This document shows, in pieces, positions 1 through 8,259 of a DNA stretch of 64,000 nt (the stretch's first letter is position 1; each line of letters opens with the position of its first letter). The notes beneath the pieces are model-generated. The model worked only from the letters and a program-made list of their open reading frames with translations. It did not search any database and was not told the DNA's origin. The position numbers and the translations under genes are program-made. The stretch lies in assembly GCA_022702545.1 (NCBI GenBank), contig JAHRBC010000001.1:2232001-2296000 (forward strand), in the 5' to 3' direction. The DNA is from Phycomyces nitens. Lineage: Eukaryota; Mucoromycota; Mucoromycetes; Mucorales; Phycomycetaceae.

Positions 1-3000
1 ATTGCCACCAAGTTGATTGTAGATGAGGCAATTAAAGATAATCTTGCCGTCCAACATGTCCTGGTATTTCGCAGAACTGGATCAAATGTACCCTGGACAG
101 AGGATAGAGATGTATGGTGGCATGATGAGATGGCCAAGGCACGCCCCTACTGCCCATTCACGAACATGAGTTCCGAGGACCCCTTGTTTCTGCTGTATAC
201 ATCTGGATCGACTGGCACTCCAAAGGGAATTGTGCATACTACTGCAGGCTACCTTGTTGGAGCAGGTTCTACGGTAAAATATGTGTTTGATTACCAGCCT
301 GGAGACATTCATGCCTGTACAGCCGATATTGGATGGATTACTGGCCATACTTACATTGTATATGGCCCTCTTGTTCTTGGTGGCACCACTGTTCTGTTTG
401 AATCTACTCCTACTTATCCTGATCCTTCCCGTTTCTGGAAGATGGCCGAGAAGCACAAGGTTACCCAGTTCTACACCGCTCCAACTGCCATTCGTGCTCT
501 CCGTCGCTTGGGAGATGAGTGGTTGGAAGGAATTGACCTCTCTAGCCTAAGAGTAATTGGGTCTGTTGGTGAGCCGATTAACCCTGAGGCCTGGGAATGG
601 TACAATACACAGGTTGGAAAAGGAGAATGTGCTGTGGTTGACACCTACTGGCAAACCGAGACAGGCTCTATTATTATCAGTCCACTACCAGGTGTTACAC
701 CCACCAAACCTGGATCAGCCACACTTCCTTTCTTTGGAATCAAGCCTGTCATCCTAGATCCTCAGACTGGTGTTGAGCTAGAGGGTAACGATGTAACGGG
801 TGTGCTGGCCATCTCCCAGCCTTGGCCTTCCATGGCACGCACTATCCACAATAACCACCACCGCTACCTTGACACCTATTTCAACCCCTACAAGGGCTTT
901 TACTTTACAGGTGATGGAGCTAGCCGTGATAAGGATGGCTATATCTGGATCCGTGGCCGTGTCGATGGTAATAAAATGTTATTATGAGAGTTGAGTGTTG
1001 AGTGTTGACTGACCAGATCCTTAATATATATATAAAACTTTAGATGTCATCAATGTGTCTGGTCACCGTCTGTCTACTGCTGAAATCGAGTCTGCACTTA
1101 TTCACCACGAGTCTGTAGCCGAGGCTGCTGTTGTTGGTGGCCATGACGAGCTCACTGGCCAATGCATTCACGCATTTGCCACCTTGAAGCCCAATGTCGA
1201 TGTATCGGATGGTCTTGAAAAAGAGCTCTCTCTCCAGGTTCGCAAAGTGATCGGGGTAAGTTAAAATTCAAGGTTAAGTTGGGTGTACCGTTCCAACAGA
1301 AGCTATTCTTGGTTCGCTCACAACACTTTTGTTTAGCCATTTGCAACCCCCAAATGCATTTATGTTGTTTCCGACCTCCCCAAGACTCGTTCCGGAAAGA
1401 TTATGCGCCGGATTCTGCGCAAGATTGTCAACGGAGAACATGATGACCTTGGAGACATTTCTACCCTGGCAGATCCTCTGTAAGATTCCCCCCCAAAAAA
1501 CAACAACCTCATATTGAAAAAAAAGTCAATTAAACAAAGTGGGATATTCTAGTGTCGTTGATAGTCTGATTGCCAAGGTCCACCCGGAAGCCTTGGTCAA
1601 CAAAAGTAATTATATATTCTCTTACACTCTAGGGTCAATCAAAGGATTACTCATTTAGAGATAAAACGGAAGATCTAACGTATATGCTGTTCTGTAGCAC
1701 ATCAAGACGAAACCCCAAAAGAGTCTGGTACGACTGCTGAGCCCGATGCACCCGGATCCTCCAGCGATAATGACCCTGAAAGAAAGCCTGTTGAATTGAA
1801 AACAGAAGGAGAAGACTGGTTTGCACTGCAAGTACTCAAGCACTCTTAAAGACTTTGTGTGTCTAACATTGTGCTCTAGATTCAATCCAGATGCCAAAAA
1901 ACGCCTTGATGTTGATCTGGTCCATTCATTTGACCATGATGGAGTCGTATGCAGTGTCAAGTTTAGCCCGGATGGCTACTTTTTGGCCACTGGTGGAAAT
2001 AGACTGACCAAGATCTACGACACTACCTATGGCGCACTAATAGCGTAAATTAACCTTTAGCCGCCTGGCAACAGTTGATCTAATTTATAACATTTAGGGT
2101 TCTTGAGGACGAAAACTCTGATGAGGCAGAGTCGTACATTCGGGCCCTTAGTTTCAGCCCAGATGGAAGATATATTGCAACTGGCTCTGAAGATCAAAAG
2201 ATTCGTGTATGTGGCTCACTTTTGGGATATAGAGATTCTAACTTGTGCTCTAGATCTGGGATATCGCAAAAAAGTGTATTACAAGAGAGCTTGTTGGACA
2301 TGAGCAGGATATATATTCGCTTGACTTTAGTGGAGATGGCCGTGTGTTGGTATCTGGCTCTGGAGACAAGACTGCTCGTGTGTGGGATTGGGTCAAGGGA
2401 GAATGTGTCTGGAAACTCAAAGTAGACTCGGAAGATGTGTTGAATACCAATGTAACGAGTGTCTCGATTTCCCCAGATGGACGCCTGGTTGCTACCGGAA
2501 GTCTTGACGGCATGGTCAGAATCTGGGACATTGAAAAAGGAGAATTGATTGAGGAACTTTTGGGCCATGAAAATAGTGTCTATTCAGTTAGTTTTATGCC
2601 AGACAACGGTAGTTTGGTGAGTGGCAGCATTGACAAGACAGGATGCCTATGGAGAATAGGAGCAAGCCGGCCACCTGGAGATATGCAGGCCTGCAAGCAA
2701 AGGTTTGTAGGTCACAAGGTAAATATATTCTTTCTCTTTATTTTTTTGAAATGGAGTTTTGTTTAGGGAGCAAAAATAGACTTCCTTTAACTCTTGTCCG
2801 ACTCTGTAGGACTCTATATTGTCGGTGGCCACAACGCCCTGTGGAGAGTGGGTCGTGTCAGGCTCAAAGGACAGAAATGTCCAGTTCTGGGATCCCCACA
2901 CCGGAGAAAACCAATTCTTGCTCCAAGGACACACTCAATCAGGTAAGTGCAATAAATGGCTGACCATTGATTCACCCTCTTTCTAGTCATTTCGGTTGCA

Positions 3001-3078
3001 GTCAGTCAAGGCAAAAGAAGCCTGTTTGCTACGGCGTCTATTGATAACAGGGCTCGGGTGTGGAGCTATGTAAAATAA
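1..3078 (+). CDS. Acetyl-CoA synthetase fused to a Tup1-type WD40 propeller (5' end outside window)
   Basis: Partial at the left edge, open from base 1. Exons read: 1-967, 1044-1255, 1337-1479, 1553-1605, 1698-1827, 1880-2044, 2098-2206, 2254-2718, 2810-2942, 2987-3078. The first four exons encode the C-terminal two-thirds of AMP-forming acetyl-CoA synthetase (acetate + ATP + CoA to acetyl-CoA). The adenylation motif [11 protein letters not shown] and the acetyl-regulated lysine motif TRSGKIMRR are both present, so this half looks catalytically sound. The frame continues after [21 protein letters not shown] through an intron (1606-1697, CTAAC branch site) into an acidic/Ser-rich linker and then seven WD40 blades typical of the Tup1 corepressor. 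The Tup1 part has no in-frame ATG before blade 4, and only about 40 nt separate it from the alternative ACS stop at 1656-1658. I therefore model one gene. The alternative is intron retention giving ACS alone, with the WD40 part a silent fragment. Both domain calls are firm; the fusion is an inference. Confidence 0.72.
1606..1697 (+). other. Intron joining the ACS and Tup1 halves (fusion or isoform switch)
   Basis: The donor GTAATT at 1606 and the acceptor ending TGTAG at 1697 enclose 92 nt, with CTAAC at 1675-1679 about 19 nt before the acceptor. Removal joins phase 1 (A) to CA and gives NKTHQDETPK, in frame with the WD40 exons. Retention runs to TAG at 1656-1658 and ends ACS with an 18-residue tail. 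Another AG at 1631-1632 would also end at that stop. The splice choice therefore decides between plain ACS and ACS-Tup1. Confidence 0.65.
1698..3078 (+). other. Tup1-like linker and seven-blade WD40 domain
   Basis: This is the C-terminal half of the fusion model. The stretch [19 protein letters not shown] matches the conserved segment before the Tup1 propeller, and [17 protein letters not shown] is the characteristic first blade. Blades 2-7 follow, with [63 protein letters not shown] and [12 protein letters not shown]. In Tup1/Groucho corepressors this propeller docks DNA-bound repressors. The N-terminal Cyc8-binding coiled coil of ordinary Tup1 is absent; ACS takes its place. Exons run to a TAA at 3076-3078. 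Confidence 0.85.
1828..1879 (+). other. GC-AG intron
   Basis: The donor is GCAAGT at 1828 and the acceptor CTCTAG ends at 1879; a CTAAC branch site lies at 1863-1867. Splicing CT to A gives DWFALFNP, the expected Tup1 sequence. The nearby GT at 1831 would break the frame. This is one of two GC-AG introns in the window, both with GCAAGT. Confidence 0.8.
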
Positions 3079-3724: not shown

Positions 3725-6700
3725 ATGACCATCTCAGAATCCGTTCAAGATCCAATCTACCCTGTCCCCGAGCGCCTCACTGGAAAGCACAAGGCTAATG
3801 TCCAGACAATGGCCGAGTACAAGGCTATGTGGGAGTCTAGTGTGAACAACCGAGACGAGTTCTTTGGAAAGGTATGTAGATAGAGCCAAGAAACAGTTAC
3901 TCATGCCCTTTGCAGCTGGGTCGCGACCTCTTGAGCTGGTCCAAGCCTTTCGAGACCGTACAGCACGGAAGTTTCTACGAAGGAGATGTTGCCTGGTTCC
4001 TCGAGGGTGAATTGAACGCATGCTACAACTGTGTTGACAGACATGCTCTTGCCACCCCAAACAACGTAAGAAAGCAAAAAATGAATTCACAGCTTTAGGC
4101 TGACCTTGTCCTGTAGATTGCCATTATCCACGAAGGTGATGAGCCCGAGAATGTGCGCAGAATCACCTACAGAGAGCTTCTCCAGGATGTCTGCAGATTG
4201 GCAAATGTACTAAAGTCAATGGATGTTCGCAAGGGTGACAATATTGCCATTTACATGCCCATGGTTCCTGAGGCTGTTGTGGCTATGCTGGCATGTGCCC
4301 GTGTTGGTGCCGTTCACTCTGTTGTGTTTGCCGGTTTCTCTTCAGACTCTTTGCGCGACCGTATCATTGATTGTGGTGCCCGTGTTGTCTTGACTGCTGA
4401 CGAAGGTCGTCGTGGAGGAAAGAATATTGCCACCAAGCGTATCGTAGATGAGGCCATCAAGGGTACCACTACAGTTGAACACGTCTTGGTCTATCGCAGA
4501 ACTGGATCAGAAGTGCCCTGGACCAAGAACAGAGATCTTTGGTGGCATGATGAGATGGAAAAGGCACGCCCTTATTGTCCTGTTACGAGCATGAGCTCCG
4601 AAGACCCCCTCTTCTTGTTGTACACTTCTGGCTCTACCGGTACACCAAAGGGTGTCGTCCACACCACCGCTGGCTACCTTCTCGGTGCTGCCTCTACTGT
4701 CAAGTATATCTTTGATTACCAGCCTGGAGATATCCATGCCTGCATGGCCGATATTGGATGGATTACTGGCCATACTTACATTGTATATGGTCCCCTTGCT
4801 CTTGGTGCCACAACTGTCTTGTTTGAATCTACTCCTACTTATCCTGATCCTTCCCGTTTCTGGAAAATGGTTCAGAAGCACAAGGTTACCCAGTTCTATA
4901 CCGCCCCAACTGCCATTCGTGCCCTCCGTCGTTTGGGTGATAAGTGGCTGGCCGATAGCGATCTCTCCAGTCTACGAGTAATTGGCTCTGTTGGTGAGCC
5001 CATCAATCCTGAGGCCTGGGACTGGTACAACACCCAGGTTGGCAAGGGCAAGTGTGCTGTCGTGGATACTTACTGGCAAACCGAGACTGGATCTATCATC
5101 ATCAGTCCATTGCCAGGCGTCACCAAGACAAAGCCTGGATCTGCCACATTCCCCTTCTTTGGTATCAACGCCGTCATCCTGGACCCTCAGACTGGTGCTG
5201 AGCTCAAGGGTAACGATGTAACGGGTGTGCTGGCCATTTCCCAACCCTGGCCTTCTATGGCTCGCACTGTCTACAACAACCACCACCGCTACCTTGACAC
5301 CTATCTTAACCCCTACAAGGGCTTCTACTTCACAGGCGACGGTGCCAGCCGTGATAAGGATGGCTATATCTGGATCCGTGGCCGTGTCGATGGTAATAAT
5401 ATTATTGGATTTATCGGGATTTAATGTTGGAAAACGGGAAAATACAGTGAAGAATTCTCTCAATTTTCCATATGTGAGAAGCGCAAGTTTACTGATTGTG
5501 TGGCAAATTGTCTTTAGATGTCATCAATGTGTCTGGTCACCGTCTGTCTACTGCTGAAATCGAGTCTGCACTTATTCACCACGAGTCTGTAGCCGAGGCT
5601 GCTGTTGTTGGTGGCCAAGATGACCTCACTGGCCAGTGCATTCACGCATTTGCCACCCTGAAGCCCAATGTCGATGTATCGGATGGTCTTGAGAGAGAAC
5701 TTTCTCTCCAGGTTCGCAAAGTGATCGGGGTAAGTTAAAATTTAAGGTCAAGTTTGTTGTTGTAACTCGAGTCTAATCAACCTATTGGATGGGCGTCTGT
5801 CTTTTGCAGCCATTTGCTACTCCTAAGCGCATTTATGTCGTCTCAGACCTCCCCAAGACTCGCTCCGGCAAGATTATGCGTCGTATCCTGCGCAAGATTG
5901 TCAACGGAGAGCACGATCAGCTTGGCGATATTTCCACTTTGGCTGATCCTTCGTAAGTTTATTCGCATTAAAGTTTTATTTTATTTTATTTTATTTTCGG
6001 ATCTTTATTTATCTGGGGCTGATCGTTTATCTTACATTGTGTGAATATTAGAATCGTCGAAGGTTTGATCGTAAAAGCACACGGTCCCAAGGCCGTATCC
6101 AATTCAACAAAGACAGTTACCAAGGAGATCACCAAGGAGATCACCAAGCCCTCGTCTACATCCACCTCTGTTAACAAGACTTCCTCTGTTGATGCCAATG
6201 GTGCCACCCAGAGTGTTGTTGTGAGCAAGGAGACCAAGACTGATGCCAATGGCGCAACCACCGTCACCACCACAACCACCACCACTACCACCAAGCCCGG
6301 CTGCCCCCCTGTAGTCTCCACAACCATCTCCAAAGAAACCACTGGTCCAGTTGTAAGCACCATCACCAAGACTGCCTCCCAGCCCGTTGTGACCACCACA
6401 ACCACCAAGGAAACCTCTTCCAAGCCCGTTGTAACCACCACAACCACCAAGGAAACCTCTTCCCAGCCCGTTGTGGTCACTACCGTCAAGGAGTCCGGCA
6501 AGCCTGCTGTGACCACCACAACCACTACCACCACAAGCAAGGATGTTTCCAAGCCTGCAGTAGTCACTACCACCATCAAGGAGGGATCCAAGCCCGGCGT
6601 CACTACCACCACAACTACAACCACTTACAAGGAGTCTTCCAAGCCAGAAGTAACCTCTACCACTACTGTCAAGCAGTCTTCTTCATCCTCTGGTCCAATC

Positions 6701-6820
6701 ATCACAGAGGTAAAGACCGACAGCAAGCCTGCAGTTGTCACCTCCAAGCCAGTCCAGGTTGAGGCCAAGGTAACTTGCCAAGAGACCAAAACATCTCCCA
6801 AGGTTCAGGCCAAGAAATAA
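3725..6820 (+). CDS. facA: Acetyl-CoA synthetase with Thr-rich C-terminal extension
   Basis: Six exons: 3725-3871, 3916-4065, 4117-5392, 5518-5729, 5810-5952, 6052-6820, giving 898 residues. AMP-forming acetyl-CoA synthetase makes acetyl-CoA from acetate for the glyoxylate cycle, lipids and protein acetylation. The N-terminal ACS domain starts at [29 protein letters not shown] (A3 core), [25 protein letters not shown] and TRSGKIMRR (catalytic lysine) are all present. Ordinary ACS proteins of about 650-680 residues end just after the ADPSVVE-like motif. Here the final exon continues [14 protein letters not shown] for about 250 more residues of Thr/Lys/Ser/Pro-rich sequence. It follows the ACS-Tup1 gene in tandem and shares intron positions with it, so the pair arose by duplication. 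The enzyme call is certain. The function of the tail is unknown; it could be a disordered or modified segment. The symbol follows fungal facA usage. Confidence 0.95.
6383..6466 (+). repeat. 42-nt tandem repeat in the Thr-rich ACS tail
   Basis: Two near-identical 42-base units (6383-6424 and 6425-6466) encode [14 protein letters not shown] and [14 protein letters not shown]. Looser copies flank them on both sides. The whole segment 6270-6660 is built from ACC/ACA threonine runs separated by KETSSKP-like spacers, which suggests growth by unequal exchange or slippage. Confidence 0.8.
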
Positions 6821-7138: not shown

Positions 7139-8259
7139 ATGTCCAACCCCCTCCGTATCTACGTTCCCGTCAAGCGTGTCATTGACTATGGTAGGATGCC
7201 CTGCCTTGAAATATCCTCAAACACCATCCAACTGCTATGAAAAAAAATTGAGAAATAATACTATATTTCTTTTTTAGCTGTCAAGGTCCGCGTCAATCCC
7301 GCCAAGACCGATGTCGACCGTAGCGTAAAGCACAGCATGAACCCATTCGACGAAATTGCCATTGAGGAGGCTGTCCGCATGAAGGAGAAGAACACCAAGA
7401 TCGAGGTTGTCGCAATCTCATGCGGTACTGCCAAGAGCCAGGAGACTCTTCGCACTGCTCTTGCTATGGGTGCTGACCGCGCTGTTCACGTCGAGGTCAA
7501 GGACGACAGCACTCTCCAGCCTTTGGCCGTCGCCAAGCTTCTCCAGGCCTACACTGCCACCCAGGAGAGCAAGCCTGACCTCTTTATCCTTGGCAAGCAG
7601 GCCATTGATGACGATGCAAGCCAGACTGGTCAGATGTTGGCCGGCCTCTTGAACTGGCCCCAGGTAAAGACAATTGTGGATAGAGAATAACGCAATCAAT
7701 TTACCCTTTGCATGGGGGGGTTGTTGTTTTGTTGTTATTTTTTTGTGGGGAAGAGTACAGAGTTTAACAAGAGATTGGATTTCCTTTTTCCCACGCTCAT
7801 GGCAAAACACGGCCTAACTTTCTTGCTCCATTCTCTGTTGTGTTTATAGACCACCTTTGCTTCCAAGGTTGAGTTGGAAGGCCAGTCCCTCAAGGTCACT
7901 CGTGAAATTGATGGTGGTTTGGAGACCGTTCAGACCAAGTTGCCTGCCGTGATCACCACCGACTTGCGGTAAGATATCAACATTACATTAATATCGCCAA
8001 GGATCAAGACGTGTAAGATGTATGGGTATTTATGGTTACTATTAGTCTCAATGAGCCCCGTTATGCTTCTTTGCCCAACATCATGAAGGCCAAGAAGAAG
8101 CCCTTGGTCAAGTTGACCCCTGAGGATCTCGGTATTGACATTTCTCCCCGCATCTTGACTCTCAAGGTTGAGGAGCCTGCCAAGCGTGTTGGTGGTCGCA
8201 AGGTTGATAGTGTCGATGACTTGATTGACAAGCTCAAGAACGAAGCCAAGGTCCTTTAA
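7139..8259 (+). CDS. etfB: Electron transfer flavoprotein beta subunit
   Basis: Four exons (7139-7190, 7278-7663, 7850-7968, 8046-8259) give 256 residues, the normal family length. ETF beta pairs with ETF alpha in the mitochondrial matrix. It carries electrons from acyl-CoA and other flavin dehydrogenases to ETF-ubiquinone oxidoreductase, and binds AMP. Family signatures are the N-terminal [38 protein letters not shown], and the nucleotide-contact region [19 protein letters not shown]. The C-terminus ends with the usual Lys-rich segment and [15 protein letters not shown]. The ATG at 7139 starts directly with the conserved N-terminus. As in the family, no classical cleaved presequence is evident. 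It ends 236 bases before DPH7 on the same strand. Confidence is high. Confidence 0.97.

Follow-up and report, generated by a model that had tools for sequence, protein, structure and literature searches.

An in-frame gene model joining an acetyl-CoA synthetase to a Tup1-type WD40 propeller within a tandem array of Phycomyces nitens

We report the analysis of a 64,000-nucleotide stretch of the genome of Phycomyces nitens (GenBank assembly GCA_022702545.1, 49 Mb in 11 contigs), which covers positions 2232001-2296000 of contig JAHRBC010000001.1 (here C1) and is referred to below as the window; coordinates are those of the window unless prefixed by a contig. Across its left end lies a head-to-tail array, Tup1a-ACS1-Tup1b-ACS2, all on the + strand, in which an acetyl-CoA synthetase (ACS) gene, ACS1, continues in frame into the coding sequence of a Tup1-type propeller, Tup1b. 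An earlier note on this DNA had described an ACS frame that passes through a GT-AG intron with a CTAAC sequence into a complete seven-blade Tup1-type WD40 domain, and this in-frame gene model is confirmed here by the spliced translation and its Pfam domains. The gene model is well supported; that a fused product exists, and what it would do, are predictions. The species assignment agrees with two proteins recorded for P. nitens: P0235, which threads exactly onto its exons in this genome, and P0239, described below. The assembly is accordingly P. nitens, or that species under a different name.

The start codon of ACS1 lies at C1:2231163 (locus L006), 838 bases upstream of the window, which opens within exon 3. 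The spliced ACS1-Tup1b model holds 1,023 codons and a TAA, with no internal stop, and comprises 659 ACS residues, 39 linker residues and all seven blades of a Tup1-type propeller, encoded by six ACS1 exons, a fusion intron at 1606-1697 and six Tup1b exons within 1698-3078. Exons 1 and 2 of ACS1 and the start of exon 3 occupy C1:2231163-2232000; the rest of exon 3 (1-967) carries AMP-binding domain sequence and is followed by exon 4 (1044-1255), whose DNA is 94-97% identical to that of ACS2 exon 4, by exon 5 (1337-1479), where read-through of the donor leads to a TAA at 1481-1483, and by exon 6 (1553-1605), which closes the ACS half and may be compared with the end of the Rhizopus ACS P0019 (...KYVHGKK). 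The Tup1b side opens with a linker exon (1698-1827), and the propeller is then encoded at 1880-2044, 2098-2206, 2254-2718, 2810-2942 and 2987-3078, the last of these ending in the TAA, with an AATAAA at 3074. The exon at 1880-2044 carries the closing strand (strand E11-18 of the model) and blade 1, and is also where the public protein model P0239 starts. As the earlier note had stated, there is no in-frame start before the fourth blade: reading on from the junction, Tup1b has no Met until blade 4, within the exon at 2254-2718, and this half has no plain start of its own.

The ACS half is a complete acetyl-CoA synthetase as judged by its domains, motifs and alignment, and is predicted to be active. 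Each of the Pfam domains ACAS_N, AMP-binding, AMP-binding_C and WD40 scores above its cut-off in ACS1-Tup1b, with 71.2, 285.5 and 85.6 bits for the first three, and residues 21-652 align with the fungal enzyme solved as 7kq6. The catalytic motifs, under what we take to be their usual names, can be read intact in the spliced translation, their Lys included, in agreement with the earlier claim. Over the large exon, ACS1 is about 88% identical to the Phycomyces blakesleeanus enzyme P0047; unlike in 7kq6 and P0047, its frame does not close where such an enzyme usually ends and continues through a linker into a Tup1 propeller. The C-terminus of the Rhizopus enzyme reads ...VVEQLIKYVHGKK, and ACS1 continues into the fusion donor.

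The fusion intron (92 nucleotides, phase 1, GTAATT...CTAAC...TGTAG) was scored against 34 other introns from five genes of the same genome. Its donor scores 7.28, close to the mean of the known donors (7.60), with 15 of the 34 below it, and its acceptor scores 6.89 against a mean of 4.79, with 25 of the 34 below it; a single CTAAC is present. These are ordinary splice sites, from which splicing itself is predicted; retention of the intron leads to a TAG at 1656-1658. The frame is likewise kept when exon 5 is joined directly to 1880, with exon 6 of ACS1 and the linker exon skipped, so that two splice forms would each yield a fusion. The strongest acceptor nearby, at 1633 (score 11.5), leads by a hand reading from exon 5 to a stop near 1676, and lies 27 bases past the fusion donor, too short a distance when compared with the introns seen here (42-184 nucleotides); it may be left over from an earlier splicing pattern. 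The intron at 1828-1879 is of the GC-AG type, which accounts for three of the 34 introns in the scored set, all in Tup1a or Tup1b and every one with a GCAAGT donor.

The six exons of Tup1b correspond to exons 6-11 of Tup1a in the same order and phase, and where exon lengths differ (four of the six) they do so always by multiples of three. The linker exon, the counterpart of Tup1a exon 6, has the same acceptor phase, is 21 nucleotides shorter and shows 33% identity over 39 codons. The pairwise ratio of non-synonymous to synonymous divergence (dN/dS) between Tup1b and Tup1a is 0.094, at a dS of 2.87 that is near saturation. The Tup1a propeller is 98% identical to that of P. blakesleeanus P0240, which places most of the amino-acid change on the Tup1b side, and the dN/dS of Tup1b itself is likely to be above the pairwise value, perhaps twice as high. 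When the propeller frame was simulated under neutrality up to the nucleotide divergence seen between Tup1b and Tup1a, one of 1000 replicates stayed free of stops, with none of 1000 at 20% divergence and 31 of 1000 at 10%; the open frame of Tup1b is more than chance. The best tree groups Tup1b with the Phycomyces Tup1a (support 97/100), but tree tests reject neither a pairing of Tup1a with P0240 that excludes Tup1b (p 0.40) nor a position of Tup1b outside the whole Tup1a-type clade (p 0.33). From the tree, the position and the exon structure together we infer that Tup1b arose by local duplication.

A good part of what makes up a Tup1 protein is missing from the fused half. A Tup_N profile search of the P. 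nitens genome gave four matches, at three other genes, and found no Tup_N coiled coil in ACS1-Tup1b; the middle repression and histone-binding region is likewise absent, with the 39 linker residues in its place. Three full-length Tup1 genes with Tup_N remain in the genome, which answers the earlier note's call for a search for a separate full-length Tup1, and its label of corepressor is only partly apt for a fused part that lacks both the coil and the repression region. Set against Tup1 itself (Saccharomyces Tup1, 1erj; P. blakesleeanus P0240), Tup1b has the seven-blade propeller in common and is without the Tup_N coil, the long middle region and a start of its own, all of which an ACS replaces. 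In yeast, residues 1-72 of Tup1 serve Ssn6 binding and tetramerisation and residues 73-385 repression and histone binding, according to PMC5679332, while PMC10163088 assigns the binding of alpha2, Yox1, Gal80, Ure2, Cti6 and Dal80 to the WD40 domain, which binds repressor proteins in isolation, and not to the N-terminus, where the contacts with Cyc8, mediator and histones lie. Since the coil and the repression region are missing, the propeller is predicted to dock the ACS on DNA-bound repressors and not to repress; binding of Tup1b to such repressors is a prediction by analogy with the yeast domain. The fusion would then be an enzyme fitted with a docking module and not one tethered to a recruiter of deacetylases, and the metabolic-chromatin switch proposed in the earlier note is speculative.

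In the array, Tup1a is a full-length gene (547 amino acids, with Tup_N) about 5.5 kb upstream of ACS1, and ACS2 (3725-6820, + strand, six exons, 898 amino acids) is a tandem ACS paralogue with its own ATG and a Thr-rich C-terminal tail. Over 651 codons ACS1 and ACS2 are 86% identical, and between -509 to 1479 and 3916-5952, respectively, DNA patches of 91-97% identity alternate with patches of 73-79%, a pattern which suggests gene conversion between the two. The first exon of P0047 is 83% identical to ACS1 and 53% to ACS2, so the duplication of the ACS gene probably predates the split of P. nitens from P. blakesleeanus. The genome has two more Tup_N genes (C1:8.32 Mb, C6:4.08 Mb) and two more ACS genes of close similarity (C6:1.19 Mb, C1:2.66 Mb), and judging by these positions no two of them are neighbours.

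There are signs that the two kinds of gene are linked in other species as well. Of 16 other Mucorales with both proteins among the matches listed, 8 have ACS and a Tup1a-type Tup1 on one contig, as judged by equal longest-contig size; for the remaining types of Tup1 the count is 0 of 10 (Fisher p 0.009). The contigs range from 105 kb to 9.1 Mb, the large ones being barely informative, and most rows with several contigs were excluded, two Helicostylum rows and P0240 being kept. The eight Mucorales for which no shared contig appears among the matches listed include P. blakesleeanus and Spinellus. ACS and Tup1 carry consecutive locus tags in Rhizopus microsporus (G6F70_008525/008526) and in Mucor saturninus (INT47_012639/012640). 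Such sharing makes it likely that the Tup1-ACS pairing goes far back and that the fusion arose within this old neighbourhood, as a local outcome in P. nitens of the duplication of the pair.

We tentatively favour, with a confidence that falls a little short of even, the reading in which ACS1 and Tup1b, lying in one frame with ordinary splice sites within a tandem array, are spliced to give a 1,023-residue ACS that carries the propeller as a likely docking module. A neighbouring Tup1-ACS pair would have been duplicated in tandem; start, promoter and exons 1-5 would have disappeared from the second Tup1, and the acceptor at its exon 6 would have come to be spliced to the end of ACS1. On this reading the propeller would bind DNA-bound repressors of the kind that recruit Tup1, and the fusion, with neither the Cyc8-binding coil nor the repression region, would not repress; it would place acetyl-CoA synthesis at repressor-bound promoters, compete there with Tup1 and, when acetate is available, favour acetylation. 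The whole of this proposal, in which a covalent ACS-Tup1 propeller displaces Tup1 from its repressor partners and feeds acetyl-CoA to promoters as a one-polypeptide, acetate-driven derepression switch born in an old Mucorales neighbourhood, we consider speculative and unlikely to hold in full. Mammalian ACSS2 is reported to be nuclear and chromatin-bound (PMC11771284); the likeness, which is not a claim of membership, would lie in the making of acetyl-CoA from acetate near chromatin, and the difference in that ACSS2 is a separate protein whereas the tether in P. nitens would be covalent and of the Tup1 type. A search of open-licence literature, by titles and the openings of abstracts, brought up no described ACS-Tup1 fusion. 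Should the fusion be made and dock on the partners of Tup1, it would be a natural covalent link from acetate use to the control of repressed genes, in which it becomes testable whether acetyl-CoA made at the promoter matters, as against supply to the whole nucleus; the Tup1-ACS linkage in other Mucorales is a second lead to a coupling of both genes.

Several observations weigh against a working fusion, and our main doubt, with the fusion known from one species and as a gene model, is that Tup1b is a relic joined by chance. In this main rival, Tup1b was long part of a full-length gene, recently lost its 5' half and is now an unused fragment beyond ACS1, which would end at 1481-1483 or 1656-1658; the chance of a matching phase would be about one in three. 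ACS1 has these in-frame stops at the ready, after read-through of exon 5 and within the fusion intron respectively, as well as an ATTAAA at 1529 that could terminate an ACS1-only transcript. For P0047 of P. blakesleeanus, too, the public model closes at the corresponding place, with a matching ADPS. The end branch of Tup1b is long (1.91 against a median of 0.069) and Tup1b retains the fewest invariant columns of all rows in the alignment, both as expected when selection is relaxed, and the constraint may date from before the fusion or the loss of the 5' half. N673, one of two named functional residues of yeast Tup1, is Gln in Tup1b. No second ACS-Tup1 propeller fusion was found with a query of residues 575-835 among the best 120 of 7,999 candidates, nor with residues 660-1023 among the best 120 matches listed, where other WD40 proteins crowd the matches and a diverged fusion could be missed. 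Tup1b alone, among the best 120 of 2,251 matches, finds the P. nitens protein P0239 at 100% and the next at 61%, with no P. blakesleeanus counterpart among them, which does not imply its absence from that genome. P0239 is identical to 320 residues of Tup1b, begins FNPDAKK with no Met and is annotated as a partial, separate protein; its contig has 1,025,026 bases and differs from the 9.9 Mb one, so Tup1b is probably present in a second assembly. Against a relic stand the intact frame and splice sites throughout Tup1b, with insertions and deletions in threes, a dN/dS far under 1, the good donor and acceptor of the fusion intron, and the lack of any AATAAA in 1440-1900 while the end of Tup1b has one. 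On balance we think a relic rather unlikely, though it is the alternative we take most seriously.

The propeller might also be fused and yet have nothing to do with chromatin, serving as a general scaffold that holds or regulates the ACS in the cytosol, with the partners of Tup1 irrelevant. Tup1b is altered at 15 of 123 columns that are invariant in all other sequences, and the linker shows no obvious nuclear signal by eye. Changes are enriched in a wider set of top-face loops that was chosen post hoc (13/39 against 18/136, p 0.008). In a set of 21 top-face positions that we take to be the propeller's hot spots, 16 are kept and the changes are not enriched (5/21 against 26/154, p 0.54), which argues against a cytosolic scaffold; PMC2882346 maps many mutations that disturb Tup1 regulation to the top loops. 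We regard a scaffold of this kind as improbable. Least probable of all, in our judgement, is that Tup1b is made as a separate short protein whose start or promoter lies internally. Between 1479, where exon 5 ends, and 1697 there is a single ATG, at 1684; it is out of frame and could reach Tup1b in frame by a donor at 1728 and an acceptor at 1841, the sole such ATG outside the ACS1 exons, but this acceptor is weak (2.19 against the mean of 4.79 for known acceptors). The ATGs at 1354, 1362, 1440 and 1443, none of them in frame with ACS1, could also reach Tup1b by other, unusual splicing, in a non-exhaustive search that kept one path per state with site thresholds of 2.1 and 0. Of the 15 ATGs in 1041-1880, 1403 alone is in the ACS1 frame, and its product would retain a piece of ACS1.

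Some further features of the array may be noted. The last exon of ACS2 (6052-6820) encodes an additional stretch of about 245 residues in which Thr, Lys, Val and Ser abound, so that, with the propeller of ACS1, each of the two tandem ACS genes has an unusual extension at its C-terminal end. The gap of about 5.5 kb between Tup1a and ACS1 (C1:2225688-2231162; L006:3188-8662) holds no evident gene, and self-comparison of the gap shows no repeat of the neighbouring genes; it might once have been the site of another Tup1-ACS unit or hold its remains. Downstream of ACS2, on the + strand at 7140-8258, lies a frame that by eye resembles the beta subunit of an electron-transfer flavoprotein.
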